Shown here piece by piece: positions 56 to 4,331 of a stretch of 20,991 nucleotides of DNA. The DNA comes from a virus. The notes below the pieces were generated by a model. The model made no database searches and was not told the origin of the DNA. It worked only from the letters and a program-made list of their open reading frames with translations. Where the stretch lies: the IMG/VR virus record IMGVR_UViG_3300030110_003233, positions 3,613 through 24,603 of that record. One strand, 5' to 3'. How positions within the stretch are numbered: position 1 is the stretch's first letter; every line of letters begins with the position of its first letter. Made by a program: the position numbers and the translations under genes.

Positions 56-691
56 TTAAAAACCTGACGCAGGCGGCAAAGATCCAGAACGAAAATTAAC
101 CACATCAAGCGACTTGCATTTGCCCTTTGCTTTGACGGTTTTCAAAGTCTTTTCAGTTATCTCAATTGATCTCTTCATCTTTTTGTGAAGCTCTAAAAGC
201 TCAGAATAAAAAGAGGAAACAGATCTAGCCATCCCGAAAAGTATATCTTCCTTAGATTCGTCTTTATGCAAAGCGACGCACTCAAGAGCATTTTCAATCA
301 TTTCAACTTTTTCTACCTGCGTGGTGCTATCAAAAGAATCGTTATACATGTCAAGAAAGTCTTCAATGATTATCCTTTGATCAGGTATTTTTACGGTGTA
401 ATCAACGGTGCCATCATTGCGCCTGTACTTGCGAACTATTCCAACCCCACCTATTTTTTTGAACGTTGAAATACGTTGCTTGGGCATCTGCTTTTGATCG
501 CCTGTTAGCCAAAGGTGGTCAAACCTATGGCCATTCTTTCTTTTTAGAGATTCTTGCACAGAACCATCTTTATCCCACGGCACTACATAAGGCTTGGACA
601 AGCAAATCCATGCTCTATTGTGTCGCGTGCCTGTCTCCCATCCTCCGAATGCGACAAATTTGTTTTCAAAAAAGGCAAGTGTTTTTCTCAT
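56..691 (-). CDS. Hypothetical early protein, 211 aa
   Basis: I do not recognise this family. It is the last visible gene of the leftward early operon and starts 3 bp after the winged-helix gene ends. The N-terminal half is rich in aromatic and basic residues. Residues about 60-105 (including LWLTGDQKQMPKQR and a later RKYRRNDGTVDYTVKIPD) could form a winged-helix-like DNA-binding fold with a beta hairpin, but this is only an impression. Residues about 155-190 look like a basic amphipathic helix or short coiled coil (SELLELHKKMKRSIEITEKT). There is no signal peptide, membrane segment or recognisable catalytic motif. The reading frame is long, uninterrupted and placed exactly where an operon gene is expected, so it is probably real. 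A DNA-metabolism or regulatory role is inferred only from its neighbours. Confidence 0.7.
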   Translation of the reverse strand: MRKTLAFFENKFVAFGGWETGTRHNRAWICLSKPYVVPWDKDGSVQESLKRKNGHRFDHLWLTGDQKQMPKQRISTFKKIGGVGIVRKYRRNDGTVDYTVKIPDQRIIIEDFLDMYNDSFDSTTQVEKVEMIENALECVALHKDESKEDILFGMARSVSSFYSELLELHKKMKRSIEITEKTLKTVKAKGKCKSLDVVNFRSGSLPPASGF

Positions 692-694
692 AGG

Positions 695-1012
695 TCAAAA
701 ATCAAACAATTCGGGTTGTTCGATAGTTGTAGGCTTCTGAGGCAAAGCCCATAGGTGCTCTTTTTTGCCGTAAATACCTTTTGTTGTTTTCTGTGTTTTG
801 ACGATTTTTTCGTCATCAGTCAAGTTTGTCATTGCTCGCCTAATCGACGTGATGGGCCACTCTTGGCCAAGGGCCTTGTAAACCATCGACGGGCTCATGG
901 GCGTCCTTGTCATTTCAAACAGTCCAAGGATGACGTCTGATTGTTTCGCAGCTTTTGCAGACGACTCAGAAGCCTCCTCAAGGTTTTCTTGATTAGTGTT
1001 GTAAAAGGGCAT
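695..1012 (-). CDS. Winged-helix DNA-binding protein with EL-F-DF tail
   Basis: A 105-aa protein whose residues about 24-95 read as a winged helix-turn-helix: helix 1 (SDVILGLFEM), then MSPSMVYKAL, a recognition helix (TSIRRAMTNL) and a wing with TKGIYGKKEHLWAL. This pattern is typical of phage and plasmid regulators and of replication-accessory DNA-binding proteins. The N-terminus is short and acidic. The protein ends in EQPELFDF. The same EL-x-DF ending occurs on the nuclease at the head of this operon and on the ATPase at 2715-4331. The Q-x-x-L-F core also resembles a bacterial sliding-clamp binding peptide. The start codon overlaps the stop of the upstream membrane-peptide gene (TAATG), so the two are probably translationally coupled. 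The fold is a fair call; its DNA target is unknown. Confidence 0.75.
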   Translation of the reverse strand: MPFYNTNQENLEEASESSAKAAKQSDVILGLFEMTRTPMSPSMVYKALGQEWPITSIRRAMTNLTDDEKIVKTQKTTKGIYGKKEHLWALPQKPTTIEQPELFDF

Positions 1013-1197
1013 TAGCGCAACCCTTTACAAGCGCGTTGCCAGCCCTGCTCGCAGTGTGTGACCTGTTGCTGGTTGTGAACGCTGGTCAATGTGACCCAAG
1101 TAGCGGCACAAAAAAGCACACCAAACACAGCGCAAACAAGGAAGTTTGTCTTTTCAGGCTTGTTGCCAGGGTTGTAATAGCGGGGACGTGATTTCAT
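1012..1197 (-). CDS. Small single-pass membrane protein, 61 aa
   Basis: I chose the internal ATG at 1197, giving MKSRPRYYNPGNKPEK and so on. The longer frame from 1245 adds a Pro/His/Phe-rich stretch that looks untranslated and lies over the putative promoter region. The 61-aa product has a basic N-terminus, one hydrophobic segment at about residues 19-38 (starting FLVCAVFGVLFCAATW), and a polar tail with two cysteines (HCEQGWQRACKG). With a positive N-terminus, an inside-N, outside-C topology is likely. It could be an early membrane peptide that affects the host or superinfection, but nothing in the sequence fixes a function. It is not a recognisable holin or spanin. A 63-bp gap containing two GGTATGCC repeats separates it from the gene before it. 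Confidence 0.6.
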   Translation of the reverse strand: MKSRPRYYNPGNKPEKTNFLVCAVFGVLFCAATWVTLTSVHNQQQVTHCEQGWQRACKGLR

Positions 1198-1235
1198 GAA
1201 GAAGAAGGGATGATGTGGGGCTCTCGCCTGAACAA

Positions 1236-1264
1236 ATGGTGGCATACCCGGGCATACCTGTCAA
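1236..1264 (-). promoter_or_regulatory. Putative promoter/operator with tandem GGTATGCC repeats
   Basis: On the minus strand a perfect -35 (TTGACA, 1259-1264) overlaps the TGA stop of the zinc-ribbon gene. It is followed by two direct GGTATGCC repeats (1251-1258 and 1241-1248) spaced 10 bp apart, one helical turn. The -10 at 17-bp spacing is poor (CACCAT, 1236-1241). The same octamer sits in the spacer of the strong promoter at 4961, which suggests a shared operator. It would drive the membrane-peptide, winged-helix and 211-aa genes. Confidence 0.45.
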
Positions 1265-1590
1265 GCAACGTGCTTCCACGTCCTGCCAACAATTGCATTC
1301 CAAGCCACCTTCTGGGATACATCCCAAATCAGCCCGCACTCAAAAGAGCTGACACCAGTGGCTGCAAGTGCTCTCATTTCGCGCACCGTGTCATCAGTCA
1401 GTTTTGAATTGGGCTGTTCTTCTCCCTTGCGATAAAGAACCTGCTTCCTTTGTGCGATCTCTTCTGGGCCTTGAGTGGTCACAAACTTGTGGTCACAGAC
1501 AGTGCATTTCCTGTAACGACGAATTTCTCCTGGCTTTTTTTTGTTGATAGAGATGACACGACTGCTGCTCGAGCACTTTGGGCAATCCAT
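1261..1590 (-). CDS. NrdR-like zinc ribbon fused to a helix-turn-helix
   Basis: A 109-aa protein with two parts. Residues 1-40 form a four-cysteine zinc ribbon (C3-P-K-C6 and C29-T-V-C32) with an RRYRKC...CDHKFVTT pattern. This closely matches the N-terminal zinc ribbon of the bacterial ribonucleotide-reductase repressor NrdR. The NrdR ATP-cone is absent. Instead, residues about 62-109 (KLTDDTVREMRAL, a GVSSFECGLIWDVS turn, then a WKHVA end) match the HTH found in many phage proteins and attached to HNH endonucleases, with the usual KLT...VR start and W-x-H-V end. It is therefore a small two-domain DNA-binding protein, probably a phage transcription regulator rather than true NrdR. Its ATG follows the nuclease stop directly (TGAATG), so it is translated with the nuclease. 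Confidence 0.75.
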   Translation of the reverse strand: MDCPKCSSSSRVISINKKKPGEIRRYRKCTVCDHKFVTTQGPEEIAQRKQVLYRKGEEQPNSKLTDDTVREMRALAATGVSSFECGLIWDVSQKVAWNAIVGRTWKHVA

Positions 1591-2238
1591 TCAGAAATCA
1601 GGCAACTCAACAGAAAATCGATCCCAAGCCTGCTGCCAGGCTTCGAGGCATTCTTCTGGGTCTTGCTTGATCACCTTACATTTTTCGGGGCCGCTTACAA
1701 CGGTGACGCACATCCCAACCGTGATATTTGGCTGGCAACCAGAAAGCAGGCTGCAATATGCCCCTAGCTGGGCCGTTGCTGGCTTGCGGGCTGCAATTGC
1801 TTTTTTGCTGCTGACCGTTTTCAGATCTCCCAAGATGACCAGTTGCTTGCTGGGCTCCAGCCCTTCCTCTTTCAAGCGAATCAAAAAGTCAAAGCTGCCG
1901 CCGAGGCTTTTGTATCTGTCCATGACCCTGTATTCAGTGGCCAAGGTTTCAACGCCTTTGAAAAATGGATCGTCAAGCAGTGGATCAAGCCACGGCGACC
2001 ATTTGTCATCAACAATCTGTGGCTCATTAAGAAGCTGCAGTTCCAGCGCCTTATGGATTGCTGTTCCTCTGGCAGCCCATCCATCAGGGCCGTCTTTGTA
2101 TTTGTCGATCATTGCTCGCTTGAACGGCGTCATGTCAACGTTCAACACATCAGAAACGTTGTGCGCTAGCCATTCGCCGCGCCATCGATAACGATGGGAA
2201 GGCTCATGAAGCTCAAGCTCTGGGACCGGGTCAAGCAT
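1591..2238 (-). CDS. PD-(D/E)XK exonuclease, RecB/Cas4-type
   Basis: This is a 215-aa nuclease if started at the ATG at 2238 (MLDPVPELEL). An ATG at 2271 would add 11 residues but would lie over the divergent promoter. Visible motifs of the RecB/Cas4/lambda-exo-like superfamily are GTAIHKALE (H62), E102 in TEYRV, GGSFDFLIR (D117), VILGDLKT (D138 and K140) and AQLGAY (Q157, Y161). This is the complete metal-binding set expected for an active DNA nuclease. Phage enzymes of this kind resect double-stranded DNA ends for recombination or replication. There is no Cas4-type cluster of four cysteines. It heads the leftward early operon and is transcribed away from the RHH/ATPase genes. It ends in SVELPDF, a variant of the tail seen on two other early proteins in this window. 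Confidence 0.85.
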   Translation of the reverse strand: MLDPVPELELHEPSHRYRWRGEWLAHNVSDVLNVDMTPFKRAMIDKYKDGPDGWAARGTAIHKALELQLLNEPQIVDDKWSPWLDPLLDDPFFKGVETLATEYRVMDRYKSLGGSFDFLIRLKEEGLEPSKQLVILGDLKTVSSKKAIAARKPATAQLGAYCSLLSGCQPNITVGMCVTVVSGPEKCKVIKQDPEECLEAWQQAWDRFSVELPDF

Positions 2239-2245
2239 TAAAGGG

Positions 2246-2274
2246 TTGCAGACTGTGCGCAGTATGGGCATAAT
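2246..2274 (+). promoter_or_regulatory. Putative divergent control region and early promoter
   Basis: A -35-like TTGCAG (2246-2251), a 17-bp spacer and a good -10 (CATAAT, 2269-2274) point rightward to the RHH gene at 2299. The spacer contains an inverted repeat, ACTG-TGCG-CAGT (2252-2263), ideally placed for a repressor. The leftward nuclease operon starts in the same 60 bp, so one bound regulator could control both directions. The RHH protein at 2299 is the obvious candidate. The -35 is weak and no transcription data are available. Confidence 0.45.
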
Positions 2275-2298
2275 TTGCCAGCAAAGCAATAGCAAACC

Positions 2299-2463
2299 AT
2301 GCGCGAATTGGAACCAATTGCAGGTACTCACGTAAGGCTGGATCCTCGCGTGCTGGAGGCCGTAGAGGCCAAGCGTCCTATAGGGGTGTCTCGAACCGGG
2401 TGGGTCAACCTGCTGCTTCAAAAAGCCATCGCATCAGAGCCGGATGCACTCCCTCGTGACTGA
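2299..2463 (+). CDS. Arc/CopG-like ribbon-helix-helix mini-protein, 54 aa
   Basis: A 54-aa frame beginning MRELEPIAGTHVRLDP and ending PDALPRD. It reads as an N-terminal beta strand (GTHVRLDP), helix A (RVLEAVEAKR), a turn (PIGVSRT) and helix B (GWVNLLLQKAIA). This is the layout of an Arc/CopG/MetJ-type RHH dimer that binds operators through its paired strands. It is the first gene of the rightward early unit, and its start is only 60 bp from the divergent nuclease start, the usual place for an autoregulator. The next frame starts inside it (20-bp overlap). Its short length makes the call less certain, but the hydrophobic pattern fits the fold well. No Shine-Dalgarno sequence is visible. Confidence 0.65.
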   Translation: MRELEPIAGTHVRLDPRVLEAVEAKRPIGVSRTGWVNLLLQKAIASEPDALPRD

Positions 2464-2887
2464 TCTCAACGCAGAAGAGCGAGCCTTTGATCTGTTGCAG
2501 TGGGTGCCGTATTCGCTGCCGTCGGAATACGACGAAGAGAAAGCAATGTGCGGCAAATACAGCGCCATGCAACGGCAACGCTCAGACGCTGCGCTAGACG
2601 CATGGGATTTAAAAAACCCTTATGAGTCGAGCGAAGAGCTGACATCCTTTCGCGAGTTGAGACGCCTTGGCGTTTACACCGACGACGATTATTTTTCACC
2701 ATCATTGGCCTCTGATGCCTTCTACCGAAAAACCCTTAAGCAGCACGCCACCACTTCAGCAAGCGTTAACAGCCCTAGCTCTGCACGCGGAAACGTTGAT
2801 CCAGTCCGAAAGGGAACGGGATTGGATGCCCCTAATGCGAAACAAGGCTTTCGACCTCGCCGTTCACGACGATGCTCGCGATCCTGA
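2444..2887 (+). CDS. Hypothetical acidic protein overlapping the ATPase gene
   Basis: A 147-aa frame that fills the space between the RHH gene and the ATPase. No other plausible frame covers 2464-2714. Residues 1-95 look like a genuine protein, acidic and helical, with pieces such as EERAFDLLQWVPYSLPSEYD, SSEELTSFRELRRLGVYT and DDDYFSPSLASDAFYRK. I recognise no family. The last 50 residues are Ser/Arg-rich (RPRRSRRCSRS). They lie on the opening codons of the ATPase gene and look like an out-of-frame shadow. Either the two genes truly overlap by about 170 bp, or the ATPase starts later (ATG at 2826), or a frameshift or sequence error truncates this gene. It starts 20 bp before the RHH gene ends. 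Confidence 0.5.
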   Translation: MHSLVTDLNAEERAFDLLQWVPYSLPSEYDEEKAMCGKYSAMQRQRSDAALDAWDLKNPYESSEELTSFRELRRLGVYTDDDYFSPSLASDAFYRKTLKQHATTSASVNSPSSARGNVDPVRKGTGLDAPNAKQGFRPRRSRRCSRS

Positions 2888-4331
2888 GCTAAAGGCATAT
2901 CTTGACGCAGCAGAACGTCGACTTCACAAAGGCAACGTTTACAGAGCAGGTCAACAGCTACAGGCCACCGAATCTGTTTTCTTGCTCGACGGCATGATCA
3001 AGCTTGGCGAGTCCAACGTAATTATTGGTCAGCCCAAGGTTGGCAAGTCATCCTTTTCAACCGGTCTGATTGCAGCACTACGCGATCGCATACCTCAGTT
3101 TTTGGGGCGTGATTTAGCAACGCCAAATGAGCGCATGCCTGTTCTTGTATTTGGCACAGACCAAAGCGAGGGTGACTGGCTGCATTTGTTGCATCGCGAA
3201 AGCTTGGTTGCAGAAGATCAAACACTGAAAAGTGACTCGGTTGATTTTTTCTGCAGCATGGAAACTGGCGAGCAATACAACTTTACGAAAGATGGTATTC
3301 GTCGGATGCGTGAGGAGATTGAAAAGCACCAATTTCCGCTTGTAATTATTGACTCGTTGAGTTCAATGATGGAGCCAACTGGCATTGAAGAAAATACGTC
3401 GCGTTATGCACAACCCATACGAAATGCGATTAGCCAGTTACGCAAAACTGGGGCCACTTTGGTTGTTATCCATCACTCTGTAAAACGCCCGACGACGTGG
3501 GATTGGATCACGGAATGTCGGGGCAGCAGCTCGATCAGCTCGGTTTTTAGCTGGGGCGTTTTGATGCGCTGGGTTGCACAAGAGGAAGAGGGCTTAGCCC
3601 GCATCGACAAGCGCGTGGGATTTGCTGGCAAGGGTCGCGGCGCCAATGAGTCTGGCGGGGTGATGGGCCAGTACATGCCAGAAGGCGGTTGGACCTACCT
3701 AGATGGATTGGAAGAGGCTCAAAAAGTTGAGCGTGCTGGGCAGCGCATTATGGAACTGGGCGGGGTACGCGCATCGGTCTTTGATTACCTGACCCTGCGG
3801 ACAGGATTAAACGCAGACGTATCGGCTGAGGAGCTTGCTACGGAGCTGGACAAGCAAAAAGGCCATGTTTCGCGTGAGCTGAGAGCACTCAAGGCGAAGG
3901 GTTTGGCTGAGCCTGTAAGGACAGAAGAAACAGGATCAAGGCCACGAATTTATTGGATGGCGAGCCCTGCGGCGATGGAATGGTCCCTGGGGGGCTCAGA
4001 ACCAGGATCTAATGGATCTGTTGGATCTTTTCCAATTAAATCCATTAAATCCAATATATCTAACTCCCAGGACGATACAAGCGTACTACCCTCTGAAGCA
4101 AAAGATCCAAGCTCAAAATCAATAGATCCAAAGACCAAAGTCGAAATCCGCAGGGGTGACGAATGGGCCGGTGGGTTTATCGTTCGCAACGGCTCTGACC
4201 TCAACAAGATTTCTGTTGAGCGTCTTGGCAATCCAATGGTGACGATTAGCAACCTGCGTTGGGAGCTAGACGTGCGCCCTTGTCAAACTGGCTCGCAAGA
4301 GCCTGAACCAACTGAACTATTTGATTTCTAA
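2715..4331 (+). CDS. RecA/RepA-type replication ATPase (AAA_25-like helicase)
   Basis: A 538-aa protein if started at the ATG at 2715; an upstream ATG at 2667 and an internal one at 2826 are alternatives. The central RecA-like core has Walker A GQPKVGKS (105-112), VLVFGTDQSEGDW (the family's TxEx-like strand), Walker B LVIIDSLSS (D213) and LVVIHHS (253-254) as sensor. This matches RepA/KaiC-like hexameric ATPases used as replicative helicases by plasmids and phages. Residues about 365-420 add a winged helix (SAEELATELDKQKGHVSREL), followed by a Ser/Gly/Lys linker and a compact C-terminal piece. The protein ends in EPTELFDF, matching the tails of the nuclease and the winged-helix protein. Its stop overlaps the next start (TAATG). 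Replication helicase or loader is the likely role; the exact reaction is inferred. Confidence 0.8.
   Translation: MPSTEKPLSSTPPLQQALTALALHAETLIQSERERDWMPLMRNKAFDLAVHDDARDPELKAYLDAAERRLHKGNVYRAGQQLQATESVFLLDGMIKLGESNVIIGQPKVGKSSFSTGLIAALRDRIPQFLGRDLATPNERMPVLVFGTDQSEGDWLHLLHRESLVAEDQTLKSDSVDFFCSMETGEQYNFTKDGIRRMREEIEKHQFPLVIIDSLSSMMEPTGIEENTSRYAQPIRNAISQLRKTGATLVVIHHSVKRPTTWDWITECRGSSSISSVFSWGVLMRWVAQEEEGLARIDKRVGFAGKGRGANESGGVMGQYMPEGGWTYLDGLEEAQKVERAGQRIMELGGVRASVFDYLTLRTGLNADVSAEELATELDKQKGHVSRELRALKAKGLAEPVRTEETGSRPRIYWMASPAAMEWSLGGSEPGSNGSVGSFPIKSIKSNISNSQDDTSVLPSEAKDPSSKSIDPKTKVEIRRGDEWAGGFIVRNGSDLNKISVERLGNPMVTISNLRWELDVRPCQTGSQEPEPTELFDF
4005..4062. repeat. Iteron-like repeats plus AT-rich stretch inside the ATPase gene (possible origin)
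   Basis: Three GGATCT repeats stand exactly 9 bp apart (4005, 4014, 4023). They are followed at once by three AT-rich units, TCCAATTAAA (4031), TCCATTAAA (4041) and TCCAATATA (4050). In the protein this is only a flexible Gly/Ser/Lys linker. Iterons followed by an easily melted AT-rich zone inside a replication gene recall the lambda origin within gene O. The alternative is simple low-complexity linker DNA. Confidence 0.35.

Follow-up and report, generated by a model that had tools for sequence, protein, structure and literature searches.

An Asp-Phe tip at the C-terminus of unrelated replication and recombination proteins in marine phages related to cyanobacterial phages, and its probable role as an SSB-type docking peptide

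The stretch of viral DNA considered here (the window, 20,991 nucleotides, bases 3613-24603 of the 24,603-base IMG/VR virus record IMGVR_UViG_3300030110_003233, labeled L002) encodes three unrelated proteins whose chains end in nearly the same five residues, EL[F/P]DF; this C-terminal tip, its distribution among related phages and its probable function are the subject of this report. The first carrier is a winged-helix-like protein of 105 amino acids (695..1012, minus strand), which matches phrog_9069 (E 3e-23), a family of unknown function, and weakly, under the curated cut-off, the TBPIP/Hop2 winged-helix domain of Pfam (E 0.015); it ends TTIEQPELFDF, with the tip ELFDF, within QPELFDF, at 698..712 (minus strand) and written GAA TTG TTT GAT TTT TGA. 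The second is a PD-(D/E)XK-type exonuclease (1591..2238, minus strand; phrog_298 exonuclease, E 1e-15), whose start was placed at Met 2238 by homology, from the alignment of relatives, the longest open reading frame extending to 2421. It ends DRFSVELPDF, with the tip ELPDF at 1594..1608 (minus strand; GAG TTG CCT GAT TTC TGA); the window exonuclease itself had no Pfam match, and the PDDEXK_1 cut-off was passed by one of its relatives and missed by another. The third is a RepA-type (AAA_25) ATPase, a presumed helicase (2715..4331, plus strand; AAA_25 E 2e-18; phrog_30286, of unknown function, E 8e-79), whose start was set at Met 2715, the longest open reading frame beginning at TTG 2667; it ends QEPEPTELFDF, and the tip ELFDF stands behind a variable linker at 4314..4328 (plus strand; GAA CTA TTT GAT TTC TAA). 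Translation thus bore out the ends SVELPDF, EQPELFDF and EPTELFDF that the original prediction, made from the letters of the DNA, had given for nuclease, winged-helix protein and ATPase.

As for relatives, the three proteins are 100% identical to their counterparts on a contig of 39,280 bases (G002). The named relatives of RepA are the Synechococcus phages S-CBS1 and S-CBS3, the S-CBS3 protein being annotated as "putative hexameric replicative helicase RepA", and those of the nuclease are S-CBS3 and the marine virus AG-345-A17; the winged-helix protein has matches in 39 phage records, 35 of them from Mycobacterium phages, the strongest being that of P-SSP7. The group consists of marine viruses with relatives among the known cyanobacterial phages and, because S-CBS1 and S-CBS3 infect Synechococcus, we infer a cyanobacterial host for the phage of the window.

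C-terminal ends were compared in 76 distinct RepA, 64 nuclease and 12 close winged-helix sequences from viral contigs and phage records, after matches shorter than 60 amino acids had been dropped and identical stretches of the last 90 residues merged; the close winged-helix set was limited to E 1e-25, and more distant relatives were admitted only to a wider set (n = 19). The last residue is Phe or Trp in 72/76 RepA (70 Phe and 2 Trp) and 58/64 nuclease sequences (55 Phe and 3 Trp), and Phe in 11 of the 12 close winged-helix proteins, none of which ends in Trp. A complete Asp-Phe end (DF) occurs in 59/76, 37/64 and 11/12, respectively, and penultimate Asp in 60/76, 39/64 and 11/12; penultimate Pro, as in an IPF-like end, occurs in four RepA sequences (4/76) and one nuclease (1/64). 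Entropy calculated on right-anchored ends was 0.55, 1.34 and 1.55 bits at positions -1, -2 and -3 of RepA and 2.28 to 2.61 at -4 to -6, against a mean of 2.66 bits at -7 to -26; in the nuclease it was 0.80 to 1.87 at -1 to -4, with a mean of 2.22 for the preceding 20 residues and higher variability than this mean at -5 and -6, and in the winged-helix protein it was low at -4 as well as at -1 to -3. Since entropy is low only at the last few positions, conservation covers the final two to four residues of the chain and not six; the expectation that the last six residues would be more conserved than the preceding 20 held for the final two to four and failed at -5 and -6, which lie near or above the preceding level. 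RepA proteins that are about 30% identical still keep the tip, as do nucleases at 44-63% identity, and both Phe codons and both Asp codons are used among the nuclease and winged-helix genes; in RepA genes, one Phe/Asp codon pair accounts for 54/76. Beside these counts, it was observed that in two loci (L230 and L252) RepA (EDPI/ENPI) and nuclease (QLRI/QPQI) both end in Ile where the other members mostly have Phe, and the two changes may be coupled; no slot gene (the gene past the ERF annealase described below) was found in the L252 record for this comparison.

The tip was then set against its background in a contig survey, in which 1589 called proteins were grouped and 96 families were present in at least 4 contigs. 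Five of these 96 families mostly end in DF, namely, in distinct sequences, the nuclease (25/45), RepA (39/44), the winged-helix protein (9/9), a DUF4326 protein (3/3) and a small protein whose gene directly follows that of the ERF annealase (26/29). By a binomial calculation, the probability of this by chance is 2e-6 when the three families that prompted the question are counted, and 0.017 when only the two additional ones are. Elsewhere the end is rare: only 3 of 1428 other called proteins end in DF, and two of these are PF00436 single-stranded DNA-binding proteins (SSBs), with ends EASADF and EEADF; a further SSB, on contig G030, ends ENTADF. The DUF4326/phrog_464 protein (L065:10642-11454, and also in L047, L049 and L050) ends EANVDF or EEADADF, and its counterpart in the cultured Synechococcus phage KBS2A (L274, 14753-15598) ends INNDF; in KBS2A, the annotated exonuclease ends SPEDF and the SSB ENMPF. 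Therefore, the tip is real, selected and beyond chance: the original prediction of selection on the peptide is upheld by the differing codons, by retention of the tip across relatives and by its presence on SSB and SSB-slot proteins of the same phages, the tail is far rarer in other proteins of the group, and the search for further carriers in related phages yielded SSBs, SSB-slot proteins and the DUF4326 protein. Ten families in total had at least half of their members ending in Phe or Trp; the five other than those above were set aside, and they comprise an 82-amino-acid membrane-like protein (LPF/SPF), a beta-barrel-like protein (KYxF), a terminase (FVNxW), a family with the end VRF and another with VKW.

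The gene position that follows ERF is an SSB slot. Just past the ERF gene and on the same strand, 49 of 56 distinct ERF loci carry exactly one of three profile types, that is, an SSB (7), a 106-amino-acid type (14) or a 92/101-amino-acid type (28), and two types occur together in 0 loci; in S-CBS3 the annotated SSB sits at this place. Of the seven loci that have no slot gene, six (L041, L043, L051, L204, L224 and L241) end within about 0.5 kb past ERF and one (L265) does not. The slot protein is Phe-terminal in 48/49, and the exception, L045, is a broken frame whose 3' end, read in another frame, gives STADF. Among distinct sequences, Phe or Trp is last in 12/13 of the 106-amino-acid type, in 25/25 of the 92/101-amino-acid type (penultimate Asp in 20/25) and in 10/10 SSBs. 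The window phage has its own slot protein, of the 106-amino-acid type, upstream of the window (L002:1680-2000, minus strand), with the end SSVDF; the slot protein of S-CBS1 ends DEMPF, and S-CBS1 gp31 was the only non-SSB slot protein with a match, a weak one, to the SSB family phrog_18154.

The 106- and 92/101-amino-acid proteins are here called putative SSB substitutes, a label that rests on gene position and mutual exclusion with SSB because, apart from the weak match of gp31, neither type gave a fold or SSB-profile match. Their profiles had no convincing match to each other (hhalign probability 8), yet the two types may be distant relatives, and for this reason neither OB folds nor three independent origins are claimed. 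In the contig survey, they were counted as one family by single-linkage grouping, partly through a common reading-frame extension upstream of the start; the two links between the 106- and 92-amino-acid proteins cover 37 aligned residues at 76-78%, and the best three of five links between the 106- and 101-amino-acid proteins cover 79 columns at about 40%.

Within one genome, the tips of slot protein and RepA go together. RepA and a slot gene are both present in 40 distinct loci; in these, RepA ends in DF or NF in all 30 where the slot protein ends in DF, and in 3 of the 10 where it does not, one of the three being the broken L045 and the other two, L019 and L228, having a PF-ending slot protein with a RepA that ends NF and DF, respectively. 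In the seven loci where neither protein ends in DF, the slot protein ends PF (four times), AF, SF or LF, and RepA ends GF, EF (twice), TF, AF, PF or LW. A true SSB ends in DF in L028, L056 and L232, and RepA is DF-ending in each; L232 is the clearest single genome, with GGGFDF on the SSB, SDPFDF on RepA and LQFDF on the nuclease. The tip is thus conserved, chain-terminal and present on unrelated proteins, true SSBs included; it is retained when the slot protein is exchanged, and its type is associated between slot protein and RepA.

The explanation that best accommodates these patterns, to which we assign a probability of roughly 0.7, is that the tip is an SSB-type C-terminal docking peptide common to replication and recombination proteins. 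Such a peptide would consist of a tail of variable sequence that finishes in x-Asp-Phe, in many cases Phe-Asp-Phe, so that Phe closes the chain; its carriers are the phage SSB or its slot replacement, the RepA-type helicase and the exonuclease, and in some genomes the winged-helix and DUF4326 proteins. As SSB or slot protein and enzymes all bear it, the carriers would probably dock in a common pocket or set of pockets, in the way that the T7 SSB and helicase both use their tails for contacts in the T7 replisome, and the enzymes would be gathered or handed over on single-stranded DNA. We infer that the tip binds a pocket, that one pocket is common to the carriers and, with the reservations given below, which protein bears it.

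The closest known counterpart is T7, where both the SSB (gp2.5, end EDGDF) and the helicase (gp4, end NDTDF) of one phage end in DF, as they do in P-SSP7 (gp2.5, PDDDF; gp4, STDF). The C-terminal Phe of T7 gp2.5 is reportedly essential, a finding attributed to Ghosh in 2009 and cited in PMC9917605. According to two papers, the acidic tails of the gp4 helicase touch patches on the gp5 polymerase, and their removal lowers processivity (PMC8835902, PMC8472574). The phages described here differ in that DNA polymerase families A, B and III-alpha (PF00476, PF00136, PF07733) gave no match in 8 phage records, which are possibly fragments, and in that the helicase is of the RepA/AAA_25 type; moreover, the tip is also found on exonuclease, winged-helix and DUF4326 proteins, and the nuclease tails are not strongly acidic. 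The mean net charge of the last 10 residues is -2.62 for RepA, -1.75 for the winged-helix protein, -1.2 for SSB and -0.96 and -0.69 for the slot types, with +0.41 for other proteins. The bacterial SSB C-terminus (DDDIPF), which according to PMC10143822 and PMC5928155 is a docking peptide for many partners, is likewise a short conserved end with Phe last; here, however, Asp stands where it has penultimate Pro, and enzymes bear the tip in addition to SSB. The likeness to SSB and T7 tails drawn in the original prediction is therefore sustained by the same phages' SSBs and slot proteins and by the ends of T7 gp2.5 and gp4, whereas its "new small system" overstates the novelty of the kind, because T7 already pairs helicase and SSB with such tails; the shared tail looks like a trick known from T7, here on more kinds of protein.

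Several observations weigh against a docking function common to all carriers. The association between slot and RepA tips (Fisher p 6e-6) is uncorrected for relatedness, and the nuclease tails are hardly acidic, with a mean net charge of -0.28 over the last 10 residues. Some members lack the tip: RepA of L204, L205, L230 and L252 ends in Ala, Leu or Ile, nucleases end in Ile in 4/64 and in Leu in 2/64, the S-CBS1 exonuclease ends PMDL, and in L243 and L249 the slot proteins end in Phe and the nucleases in Ile. The winged-helix gene is present in only 10 surveyed contigs, and in the wider set 10/19 proteins have no final Phe; the named relatives in P-SSP7, Steamy and Flavobacterium phage 1/32 also lack it. 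L216 and L225 have Phe-terminal RepA and SSB and gave no ERF match. As for the slot proteins, hhalign against the SSB profile gave probabilities of 1.5 for the 92/101-amino-acid alignment and 0.1 for the 106-amino-acid alignment, the former alignment had no profile match among PDB sequences, and predicted models of the 106-amino-acid type (pLDDT 57.7) and the 92-amino-acid type (80.9) found no PDB relative, a second structure search with the 92-amino-acid model giving no PDB match and a best Z of 3.0.

Among the alternatives, the one nearest to the docking reading is mimicry of the host SSB tail, by which the tips would occupy the host pockets for the SSB tip (RecO, PriA, ExoI and others) and recruit or block these proteins. 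The ends of cyanobacterial SSBs agree with it, as the ten read (of 20 SSB places in 10 genomes) end E[IVM]PF, some phage RepAs end DDLPF or EHPF, and the DEMPF of the S-CBS1 slot protein is of the same sort. The penultimate residue is nevertheless Asp and not Pro in 60/76 RepA proteins and in 20/25 of the 92/101-amino-acid slot type, which points to a pocket that differs from that of the host or accepts a wider range of ends; since the host ends read have Pro, the penultimate Asp looks like a phage-side feature, and imitation of the host is regarded as doubtful. A related and equally doubtful refinement of the docking reading is a private tail code, in which one receptor pocket would be tuned to -DF, not to the host -PF, and be visited in turn by SSB, helicase, exonuclease and winged-helix protein. 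If so, any tip-bearing protein would be admitted to the phage replication-recombination factory, and SSB bodies would be exchangeable at one locus, where only the tip must match.

Two further alternatives concern the sliding clamp and inheritance. The tails might be C-terminal beta-clamp (DnaN) peptides that tether the proteins to the clamp of the host, which would be the target because no beta-clamp domain was found in the 8 phage records, possibly fragments. The Q-x-x-L-F likeness pointed out in the original prediction stands for the winged-helix protein, where QxxL[FL] occurs in 11/12 tails and two more distant relatives that have no DF end finish QQDLFA and QTKLFNI; as a common feature of the tips it is rejected on the counts, being found in 0/76 RepA, 1/64 nuclease and 0/48 SSB and slot proteins; of other distinct proteins, 23/1339 have it within the last 12 residues. 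Moreover, clamp motifs need not stand at the chain end, whereas Phe here is the last residue, and SSBs bear the same tip. The clamp reading is thus improbable for the set, and a separate clamp contact for the winged-helix protein alone is possible, to judge from its tail. Far less probable still is inheritance or recombination alone, in which a short functionless 3' end had spread by recombination. The RepA alignment does contain two types, about 30% identical over their length, that in some genomes closely resemble each other at the C-terminal end and in the tail, a pattern that recombination of this part as a unit would give; yet codons and linkers differ, conservation is limited to two to four residues, and the tip survives at the low identities given above and occurs on five families.

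Returning to the docking reading, the single most likely receptor would be the ERF annealase, whose gene adjoins the SSB slot, a choice that is put forward tentatively. It is suggested by two known systems: Red-beta, the annealase of lambda, has lambda exonuclease and SSB as binding partners (PMC8303780), and in HK620 the SSB tail NDYPPF stimulates the annealase Sak4 and recruits it to SSB-covered DNA (PMC5928155). An SSB gene beside the annealase is common to these systems and the present phages; the differences are that the annealase here is ERF, a putative partner of the tip, and that the exonuclease itself bears the tip. However, ERF may not be the receptor everywhere, because L216 and L225 gave no ERF match, and a host replication or repair protein is therefore placed level with ERF, just as tentatively. 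The genome paper of the relative KBS2A reports a putative DNA polymerase, to be set beside the polymerase searches of possibly fragmentary records.

The docking reading would extend the T7 idea of a common SSB and helicase tail to siphovirus-like phages with no polymerase found in their records, and also to nucleases and small DNA-binding proteins. Sequence alone would then predict which phage proteins may join one complex, the tip would offer a way to approach unannotated SSB-like proteins, such as the one that the record of the window phage has a short distance beyond the window, and the search for the receptor would become simple, with one peptide as bait. In the literature searched, to the extent of its accessible text, no mention was found of a tail common to the helicase, exonuclease and SSB of such phages, a weak negative, with most subscription papers and the S-CBS genome paper outside its coverage.

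Finally, some minor features of the records deserve mention. The gene after that of the winged-helix protein (window 56-691, minus strand) encodes a 211-amino-acid protein that is Phe-terminal too, with the end PPASGF, and its 8 matches among the loci compared all have this same end. Around window position 1 (L002:3301-3800), a few N are flanked by a short repeated stretch and by an incomplete second copy of the 3' end of the winged-helix gene, which reads TTTEQSVLFDF; this arrangement is perhaps a scaffold join of two variants and not a true paralogue. In 14 contigs (G008, G019, G021, G025, G030, G033, G042, G045 and others), a protein of about 120-157 amino acids has a signal-like start and the end K[YW]xF, which presumably resembles the C-terminal signature of outer-membrane beta-barrels, an odd cargo for a phage.

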